NCBI RefSeq assembly: GCF_006864135.1
Contig: NZ_SADV01000006.1
Span: forward strand, 62,001-126,000
Direction: 5' to 3'
DNA: 64,000 nt
Origin: Lysinibacillus sphaericus
GTDB lineage: Bacteria > Bacillota > Bacilli > Bacillales_A > Planococcaceae
The notes beneath the pieces are model-generated. The model made no database searches, had not been told where the DNA came from, and worked only from the letters and a program-made list of their open reading frames with translations. Shown here piece by piece: positions 3,389 to 55,440 of this stretch. Both the position numbers and the translations under genes were made by a program. Position 1 is the first letter of the stretch, and each line of letters begins with the position of its first letter.

Positions 3389-4288
3389 TTATTTTAATAA
3401 TACTGGATCGAATAACCAATCCTTCGGCCCAAAGTTTTTATCCTTCTCTCCTCTTACTTCACGAGATATATTGTTTTTATAAATTAATTCTCTAAACTTT
3501 CTACTGAACAAAGTCTTTCGATATAAATATCTACCGTCATGACTCCATTCTGCTGATAAGAAAACATCATTTTCAATATTGGTTATATCTTTACGATTAT
3601 AAATATCCGGACCATTGATTACCCCACTTAATCCACAACGACATGGAGGTTGCTCGGTCGCAAAATACAACTTAACTCTTTCAGCACTACTCTCTGGTAA
3701 TACTTGTGTAGGTATAATTTGAAAAGCTTTTTGCTTCCCTTCTTTCGGTCCTTGATGAATAACTTCTAACAGTTCATAGCCTTTCATATCCTCTTGCTTC
3801 ATTAATGTCGCTAATTCCTGTGAAGCAACCCAATATCCGCTCACATGAACTAGATGACGGTCTTTCATTTCTGTTGTATCTATCACTAATGGAGAAAGCT
3901 GCTCTTTTTCCATTAGTCCACAATGCTGGCAATAGGTGTTTATAGAAAATAAAGTTCCTCTATCATCTATAAACATATCAGGTGAGTTACCAGTTGAGTT
4001 TAGTGTGAACAATGGTGCTTGCTCATATTCGCTATCTGAAAAGTCAAAGTAAAAACGTTCTCCGATTGAAACAATTCCTAATTCGTGTTCCAATGATTTG
4101 TAGAGTGCTGCTACATGTTCATATGTTACGTCTTCATTTAAGGTAAAAATAGGATTAAAAGATGCCTTTAAATTTCTTTTTCTTATTTTAGGTGCACCTA
4201 TAAAAATACCATAGCGATTATAAACATTAATAACTTGATCTTGACTAGATTCATCTATAGAAAATAAATTTTCAAGTTCTACTTTCAA
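3389..4288 (-). CDS. Uncharacterised protein with CxxCG motifs
   Basis: 299 residues, not recognised. No signal peptide or membrane segment. A CQHCG motif lies in the middle and a PPCRCG motif in the C-terminal half, suggesting a bound metal such as zinc. This resembles the layout of the loosely defined double-CxxCG proteins known as immunity proteins in myxobacterial toxin systems, but that link is an impression, not a demonstrated homology. It lies downstream of comA on the same strand but beyond the terminator and inverted repeat that close the comQXPA locus, and has its own start near an AGG-rich site. No toxin gene is adjacent. Confidence 0.7.
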   Translation of the reverse strand: MKVELENLFSIDESSQDQVINVYNRYGIFIGAPKIRKRNLKASFNPIFTLNEDVTYEHVAALYKSLEHELGIVSIGERFYFDFSDSEYEQAPLFTLNSTGNSPDMFIDDRGTLFSINTYCQHCGLMEKEQLSPLVIDTTEMKDRHLVHVSGYWVASQELATLMKQEDMKGYELLEVIHQGPKEGKQKAFQIIPTQVLPESSAERVKLYFATEQPPCRCGLSGVINGPDIYNRKDITNIENDVFLSAEWSHDGRYLYRKTLFSRKFRELIYKNNISREVRGEKDKNFGPKDWLFDPVLLK

Positions 4289-4446: not shown

Positions 4447-4590
4447 CCACGATTATCTTAAGCGTACCAGTACTTACACCGACATTTCAACGTTGGGTTT
4501 ACGCCAATTTTTTGGCGGTTTTCAGCCCAATTTCCGGCGTGATTTGGCGGACATAGAAAAAACACCGCCATAATTTGGCGGTGTTATTAA
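4447..4590. repeat. Left inverted repeat flanking comQXPA
   Basis: Contains TTATCTTAAGCGTACCA, CATTTCAACG, GTTTACGCCA and several CGCCA/TGGCG palindromes. The reverse complement of 8800-8968 carries the same blocks in the same order (TTATCTTA, AGCGTATCA, CATTTCAATG, GTTTACGCCA, ACCGCCA...TGGCGGT). The two copies are diverged but collinear and inverted, enclosing the whole comQXPA locus. Confidence 0.65.
4561..4590. terminator. Bidirectional terminator after comA
   Basis: A perfect 10-bp stem (AACACCGCCA / TGGCGGTGTT) with loop TAATT has A/T runs on both sides. It lies about 135 bases downstream of the comA stop, within the left inverted repeat. Confidence 0.75.
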
Positions 4591-4722: not shown

Positions 4723-5346
4723 CTATAGTAAATTCATTCTTTCTGCAAGATTTACAGCCTCTATCCGTGAATCTACATTCAGTAAAGAAAACAGCTGAGT
4801 TAAATATCTTTCGGTTGTTCGCTGAGGAATATTTAACTCTATCGCAATTGCTTTATTTGTATGCCCTTCCGCAATCAATCTTAAAATTTTCTTTTCTTTT
4901 TCATTTAAGTGAATATCGAGTTTGGCATCCTGCAATTGAAATTTATTATCCAGAAAATCCAAGAAATTTTGAGGTAAAACAATTTCACCATTTGCAATGG
5001 CTCGAACAGTTCGTAAAATTTGCTCTTTAGATGCTGTTTTAGCTAAAATACCTTCGATTTTCCTTTCTAAAATAAGTGGATAATAATCAGTTATATCATC
5101 ACCAGTATAAAGAATAATTGAAGCATTTGACTGGATAGCTTTAATGTTACGTCCTACATTAATGCCATTTTCTAACGGCATATTTATATCAATTAAGTAG
5201 ATATCATATGGCTTGTTTTTAATTCTCTGTATGACACGAGTTGCATCGCTTTCTGTATCAACTATAATATCTTCATTTTCTTGAAATAGGTTTTTCGTTC
5301 CCTCTAACACAATAGGGTGATCATCCACTATGAGCATCGTAATCAA
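4723..5346 (-). CDS. comA: ComA-like response regulator
   Basis: NarL/LuxR-type response regulator of about 208 residues. The receiver begins MLIVDDHPIVLEGT, matching ComA of Bacillus in order and spacing, with the phospho-acceptor aspartate near residue 53 (LIDINMP). The C-terminal helix-turn-helix contains NKAIAIELNIPQRTTERYL. In the known system ComP phosphorylates ComA, which then binds DNA and activates pheromone-dependent genes. The frame extends to a GTG at 5355, but the AGAAGGA site is only one base before it; the TTG at 5346 fits better and an ATG at 5337 is also possible. The gene overlaps the end of comP, so translation is probably coupled. Confidence 0.9.
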   Translation of the reverse strand: MITMLIVDDHPIVLEGTKNLFQENEDIIVDTESDATRVIQRIKNKPYDIYLIDINMPLENGINVGRNIKAIQSNASIILYTGDDITDYYPLILERKIEGILAKTASKEQILRTVRAIANGEIVLPQNFLDFLDNKFQLQDAKLDIHLNEKEKKILRLIAEGHTNKAIAIELNIPQRTTERYLTQLFSLLNVDSRIEAVNLAERMNLL

Positions 5347-7627
5347 GTGTATCACTTCCTTCTTTTACTGTAATTCTAATAGACATTCCTTCACTAACCT
5401 GTGAATCGATGTAAAACTGCCCGTTAAAGGCCTTTACACGTTCTTGCATACCTTGAATTCCCATCGATTCTGCGACAATTATATCCCCAATATTACAGCC
5501 TACACCATCATCCCTGTAGATAATTTCGAAACCATCGTCCATTTCCCGCAAATGAATTTCAACTGTTGTTGCATAGGAATGTTTTAACGCGTTATTGAGT
5601 AATTCTTGAAATAGTCGATAAATCATTAAATTCATACGCTCATCCTCTAAATAAAGGCGATCGATCGTATAAATTAACACAAAACTAGCTCTTTCTATTA
5701 CTTTGCGAATAAGCTTTTCTAATGCAGCATTCAATCCTAATGTATCTAATAATGGGGGCTTCAAATTTTCGCAATAAGCTCTTAAATCATGTAAAGATGT
5801 AACCATCTGCTGATGAATTTCCGCAAGTTTTGGCTGGATATCTGTTGCAACCTTCATATTGACTAGGACATCAACTTCCCGGGCAATATGGAGCTGCTCT
5901 TGCAAATTTGTATCATGTAATTCTTGAGCTAATTGATATTTTTCCTCTTCAAACCTTAACCATAATAATTTGCTTAACCAAGGTAATTGACTATCATCTG
6001 CTTGCCTCATATGCTTTAATTCTTCTAACAGTTCTTCTACCATCTTTGTATTTTCAATAAAATTATTTACATATAATAAGAGCAATTCAAGCCATAGAAG
6101 CTCTTCATCTTTCAAATGAATCGAATTATTATGTCGTAATACTAATGCTCTTTTATAATGAGCATCTTGATGGAGGAAAGCTAGATAGACTTGATCAAAT
6201 TTTTTAATTTCCCCTAATTTTAAATCTTCCATTAACATTGGATTAATCGGAAGACTGCCCTCACCCGTTGATGTAAATTGCTTTGTGTCATAGTCATAAG
6301 TTAATACAAATACATGTTCGAGCTCAAGATGGAGAGAAACCTCTTGCACAAATTTTTCTAGAAGATTATCTATTTTTATTGTTTTACCAATCTTATCTAC
6401 AGCTGTATATAACTGATGTATATAATCCCCTTTTGTCGAAAATAAGATTTTTCGTTTTCGATAATCGACTTTCTCTTTTATGTAAAAAAGAACAACTAAC
6501 GATGTAAAAGTAAAAAATGAAACACCTGATATGACGGTCATCGTTAAATATCTTCCTGCAATCCAATACAATCCAACTATAAACCACAAAGTAAAAATCA
6601 ATGAAAAGATTACATAATAACGTAATCTAGTAATATGATATTCGATATCAAATAGCCGCTCTGCTAACTGCGTAAAAATAAAACTAAACGGAATTAACAA
6701 TAAAAAAAGAGCACTAATTTCAGCAGAAAGTATATATTGATGAAATAAAATGTAAGGGAGCGCATAGAGAAAAAGGAATGGCAGAAACGGAATCATTATA
6801 CTAATTAATAAAATTTTTAACTGAGGCGATTTATATTTGAAATAGCTTAGCAATAAAATACTAAGTATGATAATAAGGAAAACGAAGAACATAGCTAGTA
6901 CAATATTCGAAAGTAAATTATTAACAGATGGGTAAATAATACCAATACCGCCCAATATCATTGCTATCACAGGAAGTATATAAAATAATTTTATATTATT
7001 AGAAAGCAACCAATTTGTTTTTAAAAATGTGTAATAATTCCTTAAGAAGTGGAGTAATAACACTAAGCATAGTAACATGCTACCACGGTTAACGATTACA
7101 CCAATACTGTTTAGACTGCCGGATGCACCAATGCTAACATAAGCCATGGAAACAGTGAGCATAAATAAAATGAGTAAACATAAAAGAGATGTATTTTTTT
7201 GTTTAAAATATAAGTAAAACACAATAATTAATGTTAAAAAAAAGTAACAAGAAGGTATTACCAATATGTAATGAAAATATTGCTCTGGTAAATCAAATCT
7301 ACTAACGCTCACATCCATTATTTGTCCGTTAGGCTTCATAATTGTTAGCAAGCTTGCCGTACGTAATAAATGATCATGTTTTATATTAGGGATATCCTCT
7401 ATATGAAGGTTATTTACACTTAAAATTACATCTCCTTCAGAAATTCGAATTCCATCCTCTAATTGTTTATTGTACGAACTAGTTACTACCCATTCCCCAT
7501 TCGCTTCTTTTAAATCTATACCCAAAAAATGCTTGCTGTAAGTAATATACAGTAGGTAAGTTCCTAGCAATATGTAAATACTTACAGCAAGCAGAAACCA
7601 TATACGTTTAAATATTTTTAGTTCCAA
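5321..7627 (-). CDS. comP: ComP-like membrane histidine kinase, pheromone receptor
   Basis: 768 residues, the size of Bacillus ComP. An N-terminal membrane helix is followed by an external PDZ-like loop (about 35-110, GDVILSVNNLHIEDI), then about eight membrane helices to about residue 390 and a cytoplasmic kinase. The HisKA_3 dimerisation box has ELHDTN with the phospho-acceptor His571. The HATPase_c domain has NNALKHS and RDDGVGCNIGD. Role by family: senses the isoprenylated ComX peptide outside the cell and phosphorylates ComA. The start is a TTG that overlaps the last ten bases of comX, so translation is probably coupled to comX. No other start is convincing. Confidence 0.93.
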   Translation of the reverse strand: MELKIFKRIWFLLAVSIYILLGTYLLYITYSKHFLGIDLKEANGEWVVTSSYNKQLEDGIRISEGDVILSVNNLHIEDIPNIKHDHLLRTASLLTIMKPNGQIMDVSVSRFDLPEQYFHYILVIPSCYFFLTLIIVFYLYFKQKNTSLLCLLILFMLTVSMAYVSIGASGSLNSIGVIVNRGSMLLCLVLLLHFLRNYYTFLKTNWLLSNNIKLFYILPVIAMILGGIGIIYPSVNNLLSNIVLAMFFVFLIIILSILLLSYFKYKSPQLKILLISIMIPFLPFLFLYALPYILFHQYILSAEISALFLLLIPFSFIFTQLAERLFDIEYHITRLRYYVIFSLIFTLWFIVGLYWIAGRYLTMTVISGVSFFTFTSLVVLFYIKEKVDYRKRKILFSTKGDYIHQLYTAVDKIGKTIKIDNLLEKFVQEVSLHLELEHVFVLTYDYDTKQFTSTGEGSLPINPMLMEDLKLGEIKKFDQVYLAFLHQDAHYKRALVLRHNNSIHLKDEELLWLELLLLYVNNFIENTKMVEELLEELKHMRQADDSQLPWLSKLLWLRFEEEKYQLAQELHDTNLQEQLHIAREVDVLVNMKVATDIQPKLAEIHQQMVTSLHDLRAYCENLKPPLLDTLGLNAALEKLIRKVIERASFVLIYTIDRLYLEDERMNLMIYRLFQELLNNALKHSYATTVEIHLREMDDGFEIIYRDDGVGCNIGDIIVAESMGIQGMQERVKAFNGQFYIDSQVSEGMSIRITVKEGSDTLDYDAHSG

Positions 7628-7776
7628 AATCCATTTTCTAAGCGTACGTCTTCTTCAAATGAATCAAGTATCGCTCTTTGCTCCAAAGCTGAAACTCCAA
7701 TTAATGAAGCTTTTTGTTCTTTTAAGAGTGCCACTAAGTCTGGGTTTTTTTCTAGATGTTGAATTACATTAATCAT
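7618..7776 (-). CDS. comX: ComX pheromone precursor
   Basis: A 52-codon gene between comQ and comP, too short for most ORF callers. ATG at 7776, with GAGGAGA seven to twelve bases upstream overlapping the comQ stop; TAA at 7618. The product begins MINVIQHLEKNPDLVALLK, has an internal K-A-S-L-I-G segment equivalent to the conserved A-C-L-I-G of Bacillus ComX, and ends LENGFWN. The tryptophan one residue from the end fits the residue that ComQ isoprenylates. Length, position, motif and C-terminal Trp all agree with ComX. The mature peptide boundaries cannot be read from sequence; by analogy it is the last 5-10 residues. Confidence 0.92.
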   Translation of the reverse strand: MINVIQHLEKNPDLVALLKEQKASLIGVSALEQRAILDSFEEDVRLENGFWN

Positions 7777-7788
7777 CTTAATCTCTCC

Positions 7789-8691
7789 TCAACTTATTAG
7801 TTTTTTTAGGTAATCTTTACATACTTCATTTATAGCTACATTTTCAAGAATATCTAATGCTCTAAACTTGTAAACATTCTTAATAGTAATTGCATAACGT
7901 ATTGCGCCACCATTTGTCAACTCATTTTCCGTAGCATTATTATCCAAAAATGCAACTATATCATCATTATAATAGTTTACAACAGAATTTGAAACATCAT
8001 TTCCCTGCGATAAAAGATAAATAATAGGCAATGAGTATCTTTTGTTTAGTAAATCATTTTTAGGTCCCCAAGTTTTTAAACTTTGAATATCATTTTTAAT
8101 TTGTTGGATAATACCTATATATTTCCCATACTCCTCAATCTCAGAAGATTTCTCCCCTTTTGCAAGCACTTCGCCAATTAAGCAGCTCATTGCTGTTAAA
8201 GAACCCGACTTTTGTTCAATCATTTGTATATATGATTGCTCATCCCTACAAGTATTAAGTAAATCTAGTTGCTGACCGTTTATACTTCGTAATGCATAAT
8301 CCTCTAGTATTTGAATAGCAATACTTTTGTGTTCAAAGGTAGACTCACGTATAGTTCTAGAAGCCATGACTAGCATAGCTAAAGCAACATTTAATGATAA
8401 TTCAGGTGTTTTAGTCCAACTGTAGTCTGAATCCTTGTCCTGCAAGTCGTCGATTATATCAAACGATAAAATTAAAAGTTCGATAGCTGCGGCAACTTTA
8501 TAAATGTCCTCGTTCAAACAATCTGTAAACGCTTCATAATGCCAATAACAAAGCTTGCCAAATGAATAGCCAACTGCCTTTTTTTCTTCTTTAAATTTTT
8601 TTAGCATCGACCGTAATTCATGACTGATCAATGTCTCGTTTTCAAATAGAATGTCCAATGCTTCATTAATTTGTTCGTCAAGCTCCTGCAA
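7789..8691 (-). CDS. comQ: ComQ-like isoprenyl transferase
   Basis: 300 residues of the trans-isoprenyl diphosphate synthase fold. The first aspartate-rich motif DDLQD is at 81-85, KSG of the substrate pocket at 161-163, and the second metal site is reduced to QIKND (197-201), as in ComQ rather than in chain-elongating synthases. ComQ cleaves and isoprenylates the ComX precursor on its tryptophan. The start is TTG with a strong GGGAGGAGAGGA site. It is the first gene of the comQXPA operon; comX starts 12 bases downstream. It could be mistaken for a polyprenyl synthase, but the neighbours settle it. Confidence 0.93.
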   Translation of the reverse strand: MQELDEQINEALDILFENETLISHELRSMLKKFKEEKKAVGYSFGKLCYWHYEAFTDCLNEDIYKVAAAIELLILSFDIIDDLQDKDSDYSWTKTPELSLNVALAMLVMASRTIRESTFEHKSIAIQILEDYALRSINGQQLDLLNTCRDEQSYIQMIEQKSGSLTAMSCLIGEVLAKGEKSSEIEEYGKYIGIIQQIKNDIQSLKTWGPKNDLLNKRYSLPIIYLLSQGNDVSNSVVNYYNDDIVAFLDNNATENELTNGGAIRYAITIKNVYKFRALDILENVAINEVCKDYLKKLIS

Positions 8692-8799: not shown

Positions 8800-8968
8800 A
8801 TATACCGCCAAAAAGTGGCGGTATTTGTGGAAAGCACGCCAGTTCTTTATTTAGGGATAGTAAAATAAGTGGCGGAGTTATATTATTGACCGCCATTTTT
8901 TGGCGTAAACTCACCATTGAAATGGCGTCCTCACTGATGATACGCTTACATTAAGCTAAGATAAATTT
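8800..8968. repeat. Right inverted repeat flanking comQXPA
   Basis: Inverted counterpart of 4447-4590. It includes a perfect 9-bp palindrome ATACCGCCA-N5-TGGCGGTAT (8802-8824) and ACCGCCATTTTTTGGCGT (8890-8907). It lies 110-280 bases upstream of comQ, so it may also contain regulatory sites. The rest of the 8692-9187 gap is AT-rich with no gene seen. Confidence 0.6.
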
Positions 8969-9187
8969 GTATTCCGTTCGTACACTAATCTTAGAGTTAT
9001 AAAGTTCATTAGAAACTAGATTGTATACTATGTATATAAGTTGATTGGGGAGAGGACGGGCCGCTTCTCGGGATTAGAGTTATATTGAACGCCTATTCAG
9101 AATGGAAATCCCCTACGTTTATCGTGAAGTGCCATTTTCACATAATCTATTAACAAGGAAATTCTCGAAACACTGGGAGTGATTGAA

Positions 9188-9832
9188 ATGAAAAATGAAG
9201 TAAATGAAAACGTTTTATTACTTACAGCTAATTTTTCCTGTACAATTTTAATCTCTGAAGAAGAAATCACTATTAAAAAACCTTCGAAAGAACAACAATA
9301 TATTGAGCAAATTATTATTGATGCTGAGCAACAGGTTTTTAAAGAAACATTAGCAGAGTATAAAAGCAAATCTACATTTTCAAATTTTATTTGCAATATT
9401 CCTGGATTTGAAGATACTTTTCAGCAAAGGCTGGACAGTTTTATTGAACAATACGGAATTATAAGAGTATCCGAAGAAAGCCTGTCTATATTGCCTTTAG
9501 TAAGTCCATTTACTTCCGAATTAAACATACATACACCTGTACTCTATATGTCACCAAGCTTTAGTATTATAAACGCAAGAGGCAATTGCTCTAACGCTTC
9601 GTCAATTGGAAATGCTATTAAAATTGGAGAAACAGTCGGTTTACCTACTTATCTTTTTAATTCAGAAATGGAAATGTCCTCTTTAAGGGACGTCACTGCT
9701 GTAAAAAAAGCAAATTGGGCACCACAACAATCGACTGCCACTTTCACCGGGGTTTCCATTAATGACAATGGTTTTTCTCTAAATATTACTACAACATTAA
9801 ATTCATGGAATAGAACGTCCATTAAGCATTAA
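9188..9832 (+). CDS. Uncharacterised protein next to comQXPA
   Basis: 214 residues from ATG 9188, which has a GGGAG site eight bases upstream; a GTG at 9179 would overlap that site. Not recognised. No signal peptide or membrane helix. The N-terminal third is acidic and probably helical (around 25-60); the C-terminal part is rich in Ser, Thr, Asn and Gly (GVSINDNGFSLNITTTLNSW) and likely beta-rich. The gene diverges from comQ across the right inverted repeat, a position often held by pheromone-controlled genes, but nothing in the sequence proves such control. Codon use looks like its neighbours. Confidence 0.7.
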   Translation: MKNEVNENVLLLTANFSCTILISEEEITIKKPSKEQQYIEQIIIDAEQQVFKETLAEYKSKSTFSNFICNIPGFEDTFQQRLDSFIEQYGIIRVSEESLSILPLVSPFTSELNIHTPVLYMSPSFSIINARGNCSNASSIGNAIKIGETVGLPTYLFNSEMEMSSLRDVTAVKKANWAPQQSTATFTGVSINDNGFSLNITTTLNSWNRTSIKH

Positions 9833-29961: not shown

Positions 29962-30194
29962 CTTCTTCATCCCACCTCGATAGATGGTCGGATGAATGCG
30001 GATTTAAGTTACTTATCAGTGGTGTCCAAACATCTGTACCTGTCGCTACGCTTTCGGTACAAAAGACATCCGCTGAAACAGAAGAATTCAGTCTAAGAAC
30101 GCCACGTCCTGTGGCGACGACTGAGTGATCAACATCACGTTGGCCCAAATCCTACGGCGGATGTCACGGAATTACGCCAAGGCATAATTGAATT
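29962..30194 (+). repeat. Dispersed intergenic repeat, longest copy
   Basis: About 230 bases: CCCACCTCGATAGATGG hairpin, GATGAATGCGGATTTAAGTTAC, TCAGTGGTGTCCAAACATC, a GTACCTGTCGCTACGCTTTC palindromic part, GTCTAAGAACGCCACG, and a terminal GCCAAGGCATAATTG. Shares block order with 2330-2465 and, inverted, 14347-14530. No coding potential. Confidence 0.85.
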
Positions 30195-50004: not shown

Positions 50005-50200
50005 ATCATACGTTCAAACAAAGGTTGGTCTCCTGGCTTGTACAGTTCACTACATTCAATCATGTCGTGCGTCATAAACTTTCCCATCAGATCATTCGAC
50101 AGTGGTATATCTTTATGATCCCTGTACTTACAGTTGCGGAAACAGCTTCGGTTTTTCACCGAATTCCCGATTATGCTATAGTTCAGCACCCTTATTCTGC
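50005..50200 (-). promoter_or_regulatory. Cobalamin riboswitch
   Basis: On the minus strand the conserved parts occur in order: GGGAA...CGGTGAAAAACCG, GCTGTTTCCGCAACTGTA, and the B12 box AAGCCAGGAGACC (50027-50039). These are the core elements of cobalamin aptamers, which bind adenosyl- or other cobalamins. It controls the adenosyltransferase-like gene and btuF. An 82-codon ORF within it is accidental. Confidence 0.95.
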
Positions 50201-50399
50201 AAGAATTATTCACTTGTTAAGCAGTTTATCATAGATTAATAGGAAAAAATAGATGTGGAATTAGAATAAACAAATACGATGGGTAAAGATCATGCAGGTA
50301 TCACCATATGCCCGTGCAGGTATTATATTTCATAGATTGATGTTATAAAAGCTATCTCTCAACGAAAGCATTTGCGCAAAAACAGCTATTTTACATCTT
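50201..50399. other. Promoter region of the B12 operon, otherwise empty
   Basis: AT-rich; should hold the promoter for the riboswitch transcript. No gene seen. Confidence 0.4.
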
Positions 50400-55264: not shown

Positions 55265-55440
55265 TAAAGGAATGGTTTTGAGCGGCTTTCGCACAGAAAA
55301 CATCTGCTGCGCTCCAGGGTCTCGGGCCAACACGATGTTGGTCACGAAGGCGTTATCACAGGACGTGATGCTTTTAGCCTTCATTCCTTTATTGCTGATC
55401 CCCAAGGAGTCCCCAGTCTCAACTCCAATCAACTTATATA
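55265..55440 (+). repeat. Dispersed repeat, variant
   Basis: GAGCGGCTTTCGCACAGAAAACATCTGC, CCAACACGATGTTGG (perfect hairpin) and ACGAAGGCGTTATCACAGGACGTGATGC follow in turn. Blocks shared with 29962-30194 (CACGTTGG, GACGTG) and 43408-43465. No gene in 55170-55561. Confidence 0.6.

Follow-up and report, generated by a model that had tools for sequence, protein, structure and literature searches.

In the comQXPA quorum-sensing locus of Bacillus subtilis, four genes follow one another on one strand and encode an enzyme that modifies the pheromone, the pheromone precursor ComX, the histidine kinase ComP, and the response regulator ComA. Dogsa et al. 2014 (PMC4008528) describe comQXPA outside B. 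subtilis, including Lysinibacillus, two species of which have two loci each, and place the tryptophan (Trp) of ComX at most 5 to 10 residues from the C-terminus. Lysinibacillus belongs to a clade that the same paper calls not B. subtilis-like, in which overlap of comP with comA is most frequent and overlap of comX, comP, and comA occurs in B. isronensis; solo comX-comP pairs and flanking repeat arrays are not described in the parts of the paper covered here. According to passages of PMC4797271, ComA of B. subtilis recognizes both TTGCGG-N4-CCGCAA and a direct repeat whose spacer is 5 nt, and its targets include genes in the mobile element ICEBs1. Here, we analyzed a comQXPA locus in a 64,000-nt stretch of Lysinibacillus sphaericus DNA (the window), which is part of contig C62 of a 5.12-Mb genome. 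We consider it probable that this locus is the hub of a ComX-type network, in which a solo comX-comP pair on contig C11 shares the hub ComQ and ComA, and ComA acts at arrays of TGGCG half-sites.

The four genes are adjacent on the minus strand between positions 4723 and 8691, with the start codons taken mechanically from a list of open reading frames (ORFs):

7789-8691, minus strand: comQ, TTG start, 300 amino acids, ComX-modifying enzyme of the polyprenyl synthetase family (PF00348, 68.5 bits, cut-off 27)
7618-7776, minus strand: comX, 52-amino-acid pheromone precursor with the end LENGFWN and Trp51 (PF05952, 46.8 bits, E = 2.6e-12, cut-off 25)
5321-7627, minus strand: comP, membrane histidine kinase, possibly with a PDZ-like loop (HATPase_c above cut-off, HisKA_3 and PDZ below; AlphaFold2 model)
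4723-5355, minus strand: comA, NarL/LuxR-type response regulator (Response_reg and GerE above cut-offs; receiver and LuxR-type DNA-binding domains)

The overlaps are 10 bp for comX with comP and 35 bp for comP with comA, and an Asp-rich motif, FDIIDDLQDKD, can be read by eye in ComQ. A sequence-only reading of the window had proposed that the comQXPA locus is complete and includes a 52-codon comX. The ORFs, their order, strand, and overlaps were found as proposed, the Pfam domains agree, and both K-A-S-L-I-G and GFWN are present in the 52-residue protein, which the suggested hidden Markov model search assigned to the ComX family far past chance. The locus is a genuine comQXPA member of an already known kind; placing it outside B. 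subtilis was correct but not new, since comQXPA of Lysinibacillus is already described in PMC4008528. It shares with the B. subtilis locus the four genes in the same order and strand, a ComX with a C-terminal Trp, PF07730 (here just below cut-off) and PF02518 in ComP, and PF00072 and PF00196 in ComA. It differs in the penultimate position of the Trp, in the comX-comP and comP-comA overlaps, in an extra solo comX-comP pair, and in the half-site of the putative operator. What is new here, beyond the known locus, are the solo pairs and the putative array regulon, and both are worth testing.

PF05952 matches are present in all 32 genomes of the genus that were searched and in 50 of 200 genomes of the family (genus included). 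The 73 comX places of the genus were examined together with flanks of about 6 kb, shorter where a contig ended, and classified by BLAST of neighboring ORFs on the same strand with midpoints within 4.5 kb. There are 38 comQXPA loci (31 of hub type and seven divergent), 33 solo comX-comP pairs, and two comQ-comX pairs with neither comP nor comA beside them (L119 in G161 and L120 in G151). Solo pairs occur in 26 of the 32 genomes, five of them in G181, three in G202, and two in G195. G063, G115, G151, G161, G185, and G201 (86% complete) have none, and the first five of these have extra divergent comQ-comX loci.

In the source genome, the second comX, on contig C11, encodes 52 amino acids, is 65% identical to ComX of the window, and is followed by a comP of 784 amino acids; a divergent DUF418 gene lies upstream of the pair and a beta-lactamase-family gene downstream. 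BLAST of neighboring ORFs revealed no comQ or comA relative in the 15-kb stretch that holds this pair (L003), which is not a canonical comQXPA locus. The genome has one ComQ, the next relative being 27% identical over residues 63-226 only, and one close ComA, the next being 47% identical and adjoining its own kinase. Since the second pair comes without a modifying enzyme and a regulator, we infer that one ComQ and one ComA are shared by the hub and the solo pair.

A natural split of the comQXPA locus is found in genome G014. PF05952 matches this genome only once, in a solo pair that also holds the only close comP found there. In the hub remnant, comA comes directly after comQ, across a gap of about 105 bp as read by eye, and both comX and comP are missing. 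The other ComP-like kinase of G014 is of a third type, about 47% identical, and stands beside a regulator of similar identity. If the ComX system of G014 works, ComQ and ComA must therefore act in trans. We regard this as the strongest single support for sharing, yet it comes from one genome.

For the tree, the identities, and the distance correlation below, sequences of ComP were compared using 67 of the 73 places, leaving out the two comQX loci and four solo comP in pieces, together with third kinases that have their own regulator, sampled in five genomes. In a tree of 72 rows, built by a quick method, the 29 solo ComPs with an ORF of more than 700 amino acids form one group (Shimodaira-Hasegawa-like approximate likelihood ratio test support of 99). 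Between hub and solo ComP of the same genome (28 pairs), identity was 44.7% in the ectodomain (transmembrane helix TM1, loop, and TM2), 59.8% in the remaining membrane region, 61.2% in the linker, 77.9% in the DHp domain, and 67.8% in the catalytic domain. The corresponding values for hub ComP against third kinases (155 pairs) were 32.0%, 41.1%, 36.8%, 57.4%, and 46.4%. The C-termini of hub and solo ComX of the same genome differ in 28 of 28 pairs; compared without gaps, they are on average 27% identical around the Trp, and the pro-regions 59%. The distance between ComX C-termini tracks the distance between ComP ectodomains when kinase distance is removed (partial r of 0.446, with none of 2000 permutations as high).

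The hub is flanked on both sides by arrays of TGGCG half-sites, which point outward, toward two neighboring genes:

4497-4581, minus strand: downstream half-site array, toward the gene at 3389-4288 (31 of 32 hub downstream flanks have one palindrome or more)
8805-8930, plus strand: upstream half-site array, outward, toward the gene at 9179-9832 (30 of 32 hub upstream flanks have one palindrome or more)
3389-4288, minus strand: conserved neighbor gene, 299 amino acids, putative array target, beside all 31 hub-type comQXPA loci shown
9179-9832, plus strand: divergent neighbor gene, 217 amino acids, putative array target, beside 28 of 31 hub-type loci

The palindromes were counted with the pattern [AC]CGCCA-N3-8-TGGCG[GT] in 420-bp flanks; of the 32 hubs, G014 has the downstream palindrome only and G201 has none. 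The divergent neighbor was not seen at G109 (where the stretch ends with the contig), G192, and G201, and neither neighbor gene has a match in Pfam, PHROGs, or NCBIfam. With two or fewer mismatches, CCGCCA-N5-TGGCGG matches the window four times, always beside the locus (0.5 expected), and the whole genome has exact CCGCCA-N4-8-TGGCGG only beside the hub, at two places. Whole-locus scans revealed no palindromes in the 33 solo or the seven divergent comQXPA loci.

The downstream array has as its core a direct repeat with a 10-bp period, TGGCGTGATTTGGCG, which is present in the window with one mismatch. The exact sequence was found in 25 of 29 genomes of the genus versus two of 171 other genomes of the family, in both of which it lies inside a 1,211-amino-acid ORF. 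When one mismatch was allowed, 60 places were found in the 32 genomes, against one for a reversed-pattern control: 31 are at hubs, 20 lie outside any ORF of more than 100 amino acids, and nine lie inside one. The 20 intergenic places have one to five extra half-sites within 150 bp, and CTCGAG is found near the core in 16 of them (background 2.9%). The nine in-ORF matches, with zero or one extra half-site and CTCGAG near none of them, were set aside as chance. In 19 of the 20 non-hub arrays the core is on the strand of the downstream gene (orientation by eye). In the source genome, CTCGAGG-N4-20-GCTATAG occurs at two places, which are two of the three non-hub arrays there, and two further places, C1:5281 and C53:204377, differ from the core by two mismatches. 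In G127, the upstream flank continues through CTCGAGG and GCTATAGC in the direction of the divergent gene. We read the hub flanks as two putative outward promoters. The view that the palindromes are hairpins only was rejected, as an A/C change in the outer arm lacks a compensating change (by eye), though the inner palindrome at 4565-4581 also resembles a terminator of comA (by eye).

The first ORF after 16 of the 20 non-hub arrays starts like a signal peptide, as judged by eye; at L158 the second ORF rather than the first does so, and at L201, L204, and L207 none. One target of the source genome passes the BLB8/JUQZ-1 bacteriocin model (NF053514) with 41.9 bits, barely over the cut-off of 40, and another matches only below the model cut-off (six of the 20 targets were compared with that library). 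JUQZ-1, as given in passages of PMC11747845, is a 12-kDa antibacterial protein of Brevibacillus laterosporus, and a bacteriocin role here is a candidate one. Among ten targets compared with Pfam, eight had no match at E = 0.01 and two had matches below curated cut-offs. Seven targets belong to one family with a constant signal peptide-like start and a variable remainder. Endolysin genes stand beside two of the three non-hub arrays of the source genome, one of them also with a tested holin, and target L156 matches the phage family phrog_8287, to which no function is assigned (E = 4.9e-17).

The anatomy of these loci suggests the following scheme. Hub ComQ would prenylate the penultimate Trp of ComX, and the C-terminal peptide would be released outside the cell, where ComP would sense it and phosphorylate ComA. 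ComX of C11 would likewise be modified by hub ComQ, and ComP of C11 would feed hub ComA, so that two pheromone channels would converge on one regulator. Phosphorylated ComA would act at the TGGCG arrays, both the two that flank the hub and face its neighbors and those that precede small secreted-looking ORFs, some of them beside phage lysis genes; the arrays would thus serve as promoter elements. Extended to the genus, the proposal is a tentative one, in which we have rather less confidence: most of the species searched (26 of 32 genomes, with one to five extra channels) may have such a hub-and-satellite network, with a shared regulator firing array-bearing promoters of proteins that are secreted, bacteriocin-like, and in part prophage-borne. 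If this is true, ComX signaling in Lysinibacillus is multi-channel, with a common modifying enzyme and a common output, and offers a way to test how several prenylated pheromones are integrated by one kinase-regulator family and how the duplication and divergence of pherotype pairs proceed. A candidate ComA regulon in the genus would then follow from the proposed operator and connect quorum sensing with proteins that are secreted and phage-linked, and the cargo of resident prophages would be timed by host pheromones.

Several observations weigh against the shared network. Four solo comP are in two pieces (L077, L083, L091, and L098), one more has a stop inside the match (G181:C1:1357148), and the hub comA of G033 (L070), a locus counted as comQXPA, is in two pieces as well. 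ComP of G014 is on a long branch of the ComP tree. In the distance correlation, the ComX pro-region, used as a control, gave a lower partial r of 0.302 but likewise no permutation of 2000 as high, so the permutation count does not separate it from the C-terminus, and relatedness was not removed in either case. Upstream of solo comX no array was seen: a half-site is absent from 400 bp in 22 of 33, and CTCGAG in all 33, so the solo pairs are not visible targets themselves. The loose palindrome CGCCA-N5-7-TGGCG is not specific, with 13 places in the genome against four for the control; four of the 13 are at the hub, two at other arrays, and seven at neither, and the one at C62:92100 is not an array because it is inside a Bacillaceae-1 RNA match (30077-30143, plus strand). 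The flanks of the window itself have no CTCGAG, although the downstream one has GCTATAG. B. subtilis-type ComA boxes, finally, are at chance in the window when three or fewer mismatches are allowed, both for TTGCGG-N4-CCGCAA (13 versus 14.3 expected) and for TTGCGG-N5-TTGCGG (30 versus 33.1 expected).

The four fragmented solo comP, and the lack of a solo pair in six genomes, would fit if the locus were an ordinary stand-alone comQXPA and the solo pair a decaying, functionless duplicate. We consider this unlikely: 29 of 33 solo comP have an ORF of more than 700 amino acids, the ratio of nonsynonymous to synonymous substitution rates is 0.079-0.161 in six solo ComP pairs (0.045-0.222 in four hub pairs; all pairs hand-picked), all 33 solo ComX retain a Trp as the second or third residue from the end, and the solo pair of G014 has the only comX and the only close comP found in that genome. 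It is similarly improbable that the solo pair is served by other partners, either another prenyltransferase or the regulator of a third ComP/ComA-like pair. Both exist in the source genome (G000), where the third pair, on contig C44 (L131, 4858-7678), is 40-47% identical to that of the hub, but the DHp domain of solo ComP is 56.3% identical to third kinases against the 77.9% to hub ComP of the same genome, and the other synthase resembles ComQ only distantly and over part of its length. A hidden comX beside the third pair was also considered; none was recognized by eye, and there is no PF05952 match there.

That the arrays are bound by another regulator, which co-regulates the hub, is a possibility of more substance than these, though we do not favor it; sharing between hub and satellites may hold even then. 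The chance frequency of B. subtilis-type boxes speaks for it, as does the half-site, TGGCG rather than TTGCGG, and its spacing, with mostly 5-7 nt between arms and a 10-bp direct-repeat period in place of spacers of 4 and 5 nt (passages of PMC4797271). On the other hand, arrays stand on at least one side of 31 of 32 hubs, and among the family genomes searched the exact core is confined to the genus apart from the two in-ORF matches. The hub ComA sequence, in the stretch that we take to be the DNA-contacting helix, reads PQRTTERYL in 30 hubs; G014 has SQRTTERYL there, and the array-less G201, a single case, has TQRTVERYL. ComA of B. subtilis, moreover, likewise uses inverted and direct repeats of one half-site and has targets in a mobile element (passages of PMC4797271), and a repeat layout of this kind is present at putative quorum targets here. 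On balance, the protein that binds the arrays is probably ComA.

The flanking repeats might also mark where a mobile element with comQXPA as its cargo ended, as the two hub flanks, judged by eye on alignments, read as mutual inverted repeats. We judged such transposon ends very unlikely, because hub-type loci keep the same neighbors, the window has no transposase-like gene between the two flanks, and similar arrays stand singly before other genes with common downstream elements; two outward promoters fit better. In the literature searched (open-licence PMC papers, mostly by listing), no description of solo comX-comP pairs or of this operator was found, nor a ComA regulon for Lysinibacillus; no wider search on ComA regulons elsewhere was made.

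A penultimate Trp is unusual relative to B. subtilis pheromones. The C-terminus of the window ComX, which the sequence-only reading had called unusual, is so only in that comparison; within the genus it is ordinary, as 65 of 73 ComX have a penultimate Trp and 23 of 31 hub-type ComX end in WN. That the separate pherotype proposed there is a private one is doubtful, because ComX of G200 also ends in LENGFWN and ComP of G200 is 92% identical to ComP of the window over its full length, while other hub-type ComPs are 80% identical or less. The pherotype is thus probably common to at least two species. The window ComX has no match in NCBIfam, and a relative is annotated as "competence pheromone ComX" in the record of L. 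fusiformis MGMM7. Phages were considered as carriers, and no match to the window ComX was found in the phage collection at E = 0.001. In another genus of the family, two comX matches lie about 470 bp apart (G019:C1:995144-995751).

Of the two features proposed for ComP, the kinase part was borne out by HATPase_c (PF02518, 38.2 bits, cut-off 26.4), with HisKA_3 falling just below its cut-off (PF07730, 23.4 bits, E = 8.7e-5, cut-off 24), while the PDZ-like loop found a weak echo in a Pfam match below cut-off (16.9 bits, E = 0.0086, cut-off 23.2). An AlphaFold2 model of residues 1-350 (mean predicted local distance difference test score of 76) shows a single helix followed by a small beta region and then a helical bundle, the last of which points to N-terminal membrane helices. 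Foldseek returned CtpA/CtpB proteases among weak matches to this model (E of about 0.01 to 0.1, none at 0.001 or less), with receptors that have helical bundles ranking alongside; the aligned part of CtpA/CtpB appears, in our reading, to be their PDZ domain. The phospho-acceptor motif is HDTNLQ in 31 of 38 comQXPA ComPs (not matched singly to the hub type) and HDTILQ or HDTVLQ in 23 of 29 solo ComPs.

Plasmids were considered as carriers of solo pairs, an idea set aside after two of the three plasmid-labeled records matched had been looked at; two of the three are named Stenotrophomonas. CP031730.1 (L136), named as a Stenotrophomonas rhizophila plasmid, contains a whole Lysinibacillus-like comQXPA hub with similar neighbors and is probably mislabeled. 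NZ_CP130332.1 (L137, L209), from L. fusiformis MGMM7, is labeled as a plasmid yet holds housekeeping genes, and has comQ-comX and comP-comA about 70 kb apart; the third record matched was CP065518.1. Elsewhere in the window, a second Bacillaceae-1 RNA match lies at 55327-55393 (minus strand) and a cobalamin riboswitch at 50006-50209 (minus strand, 87 bits).

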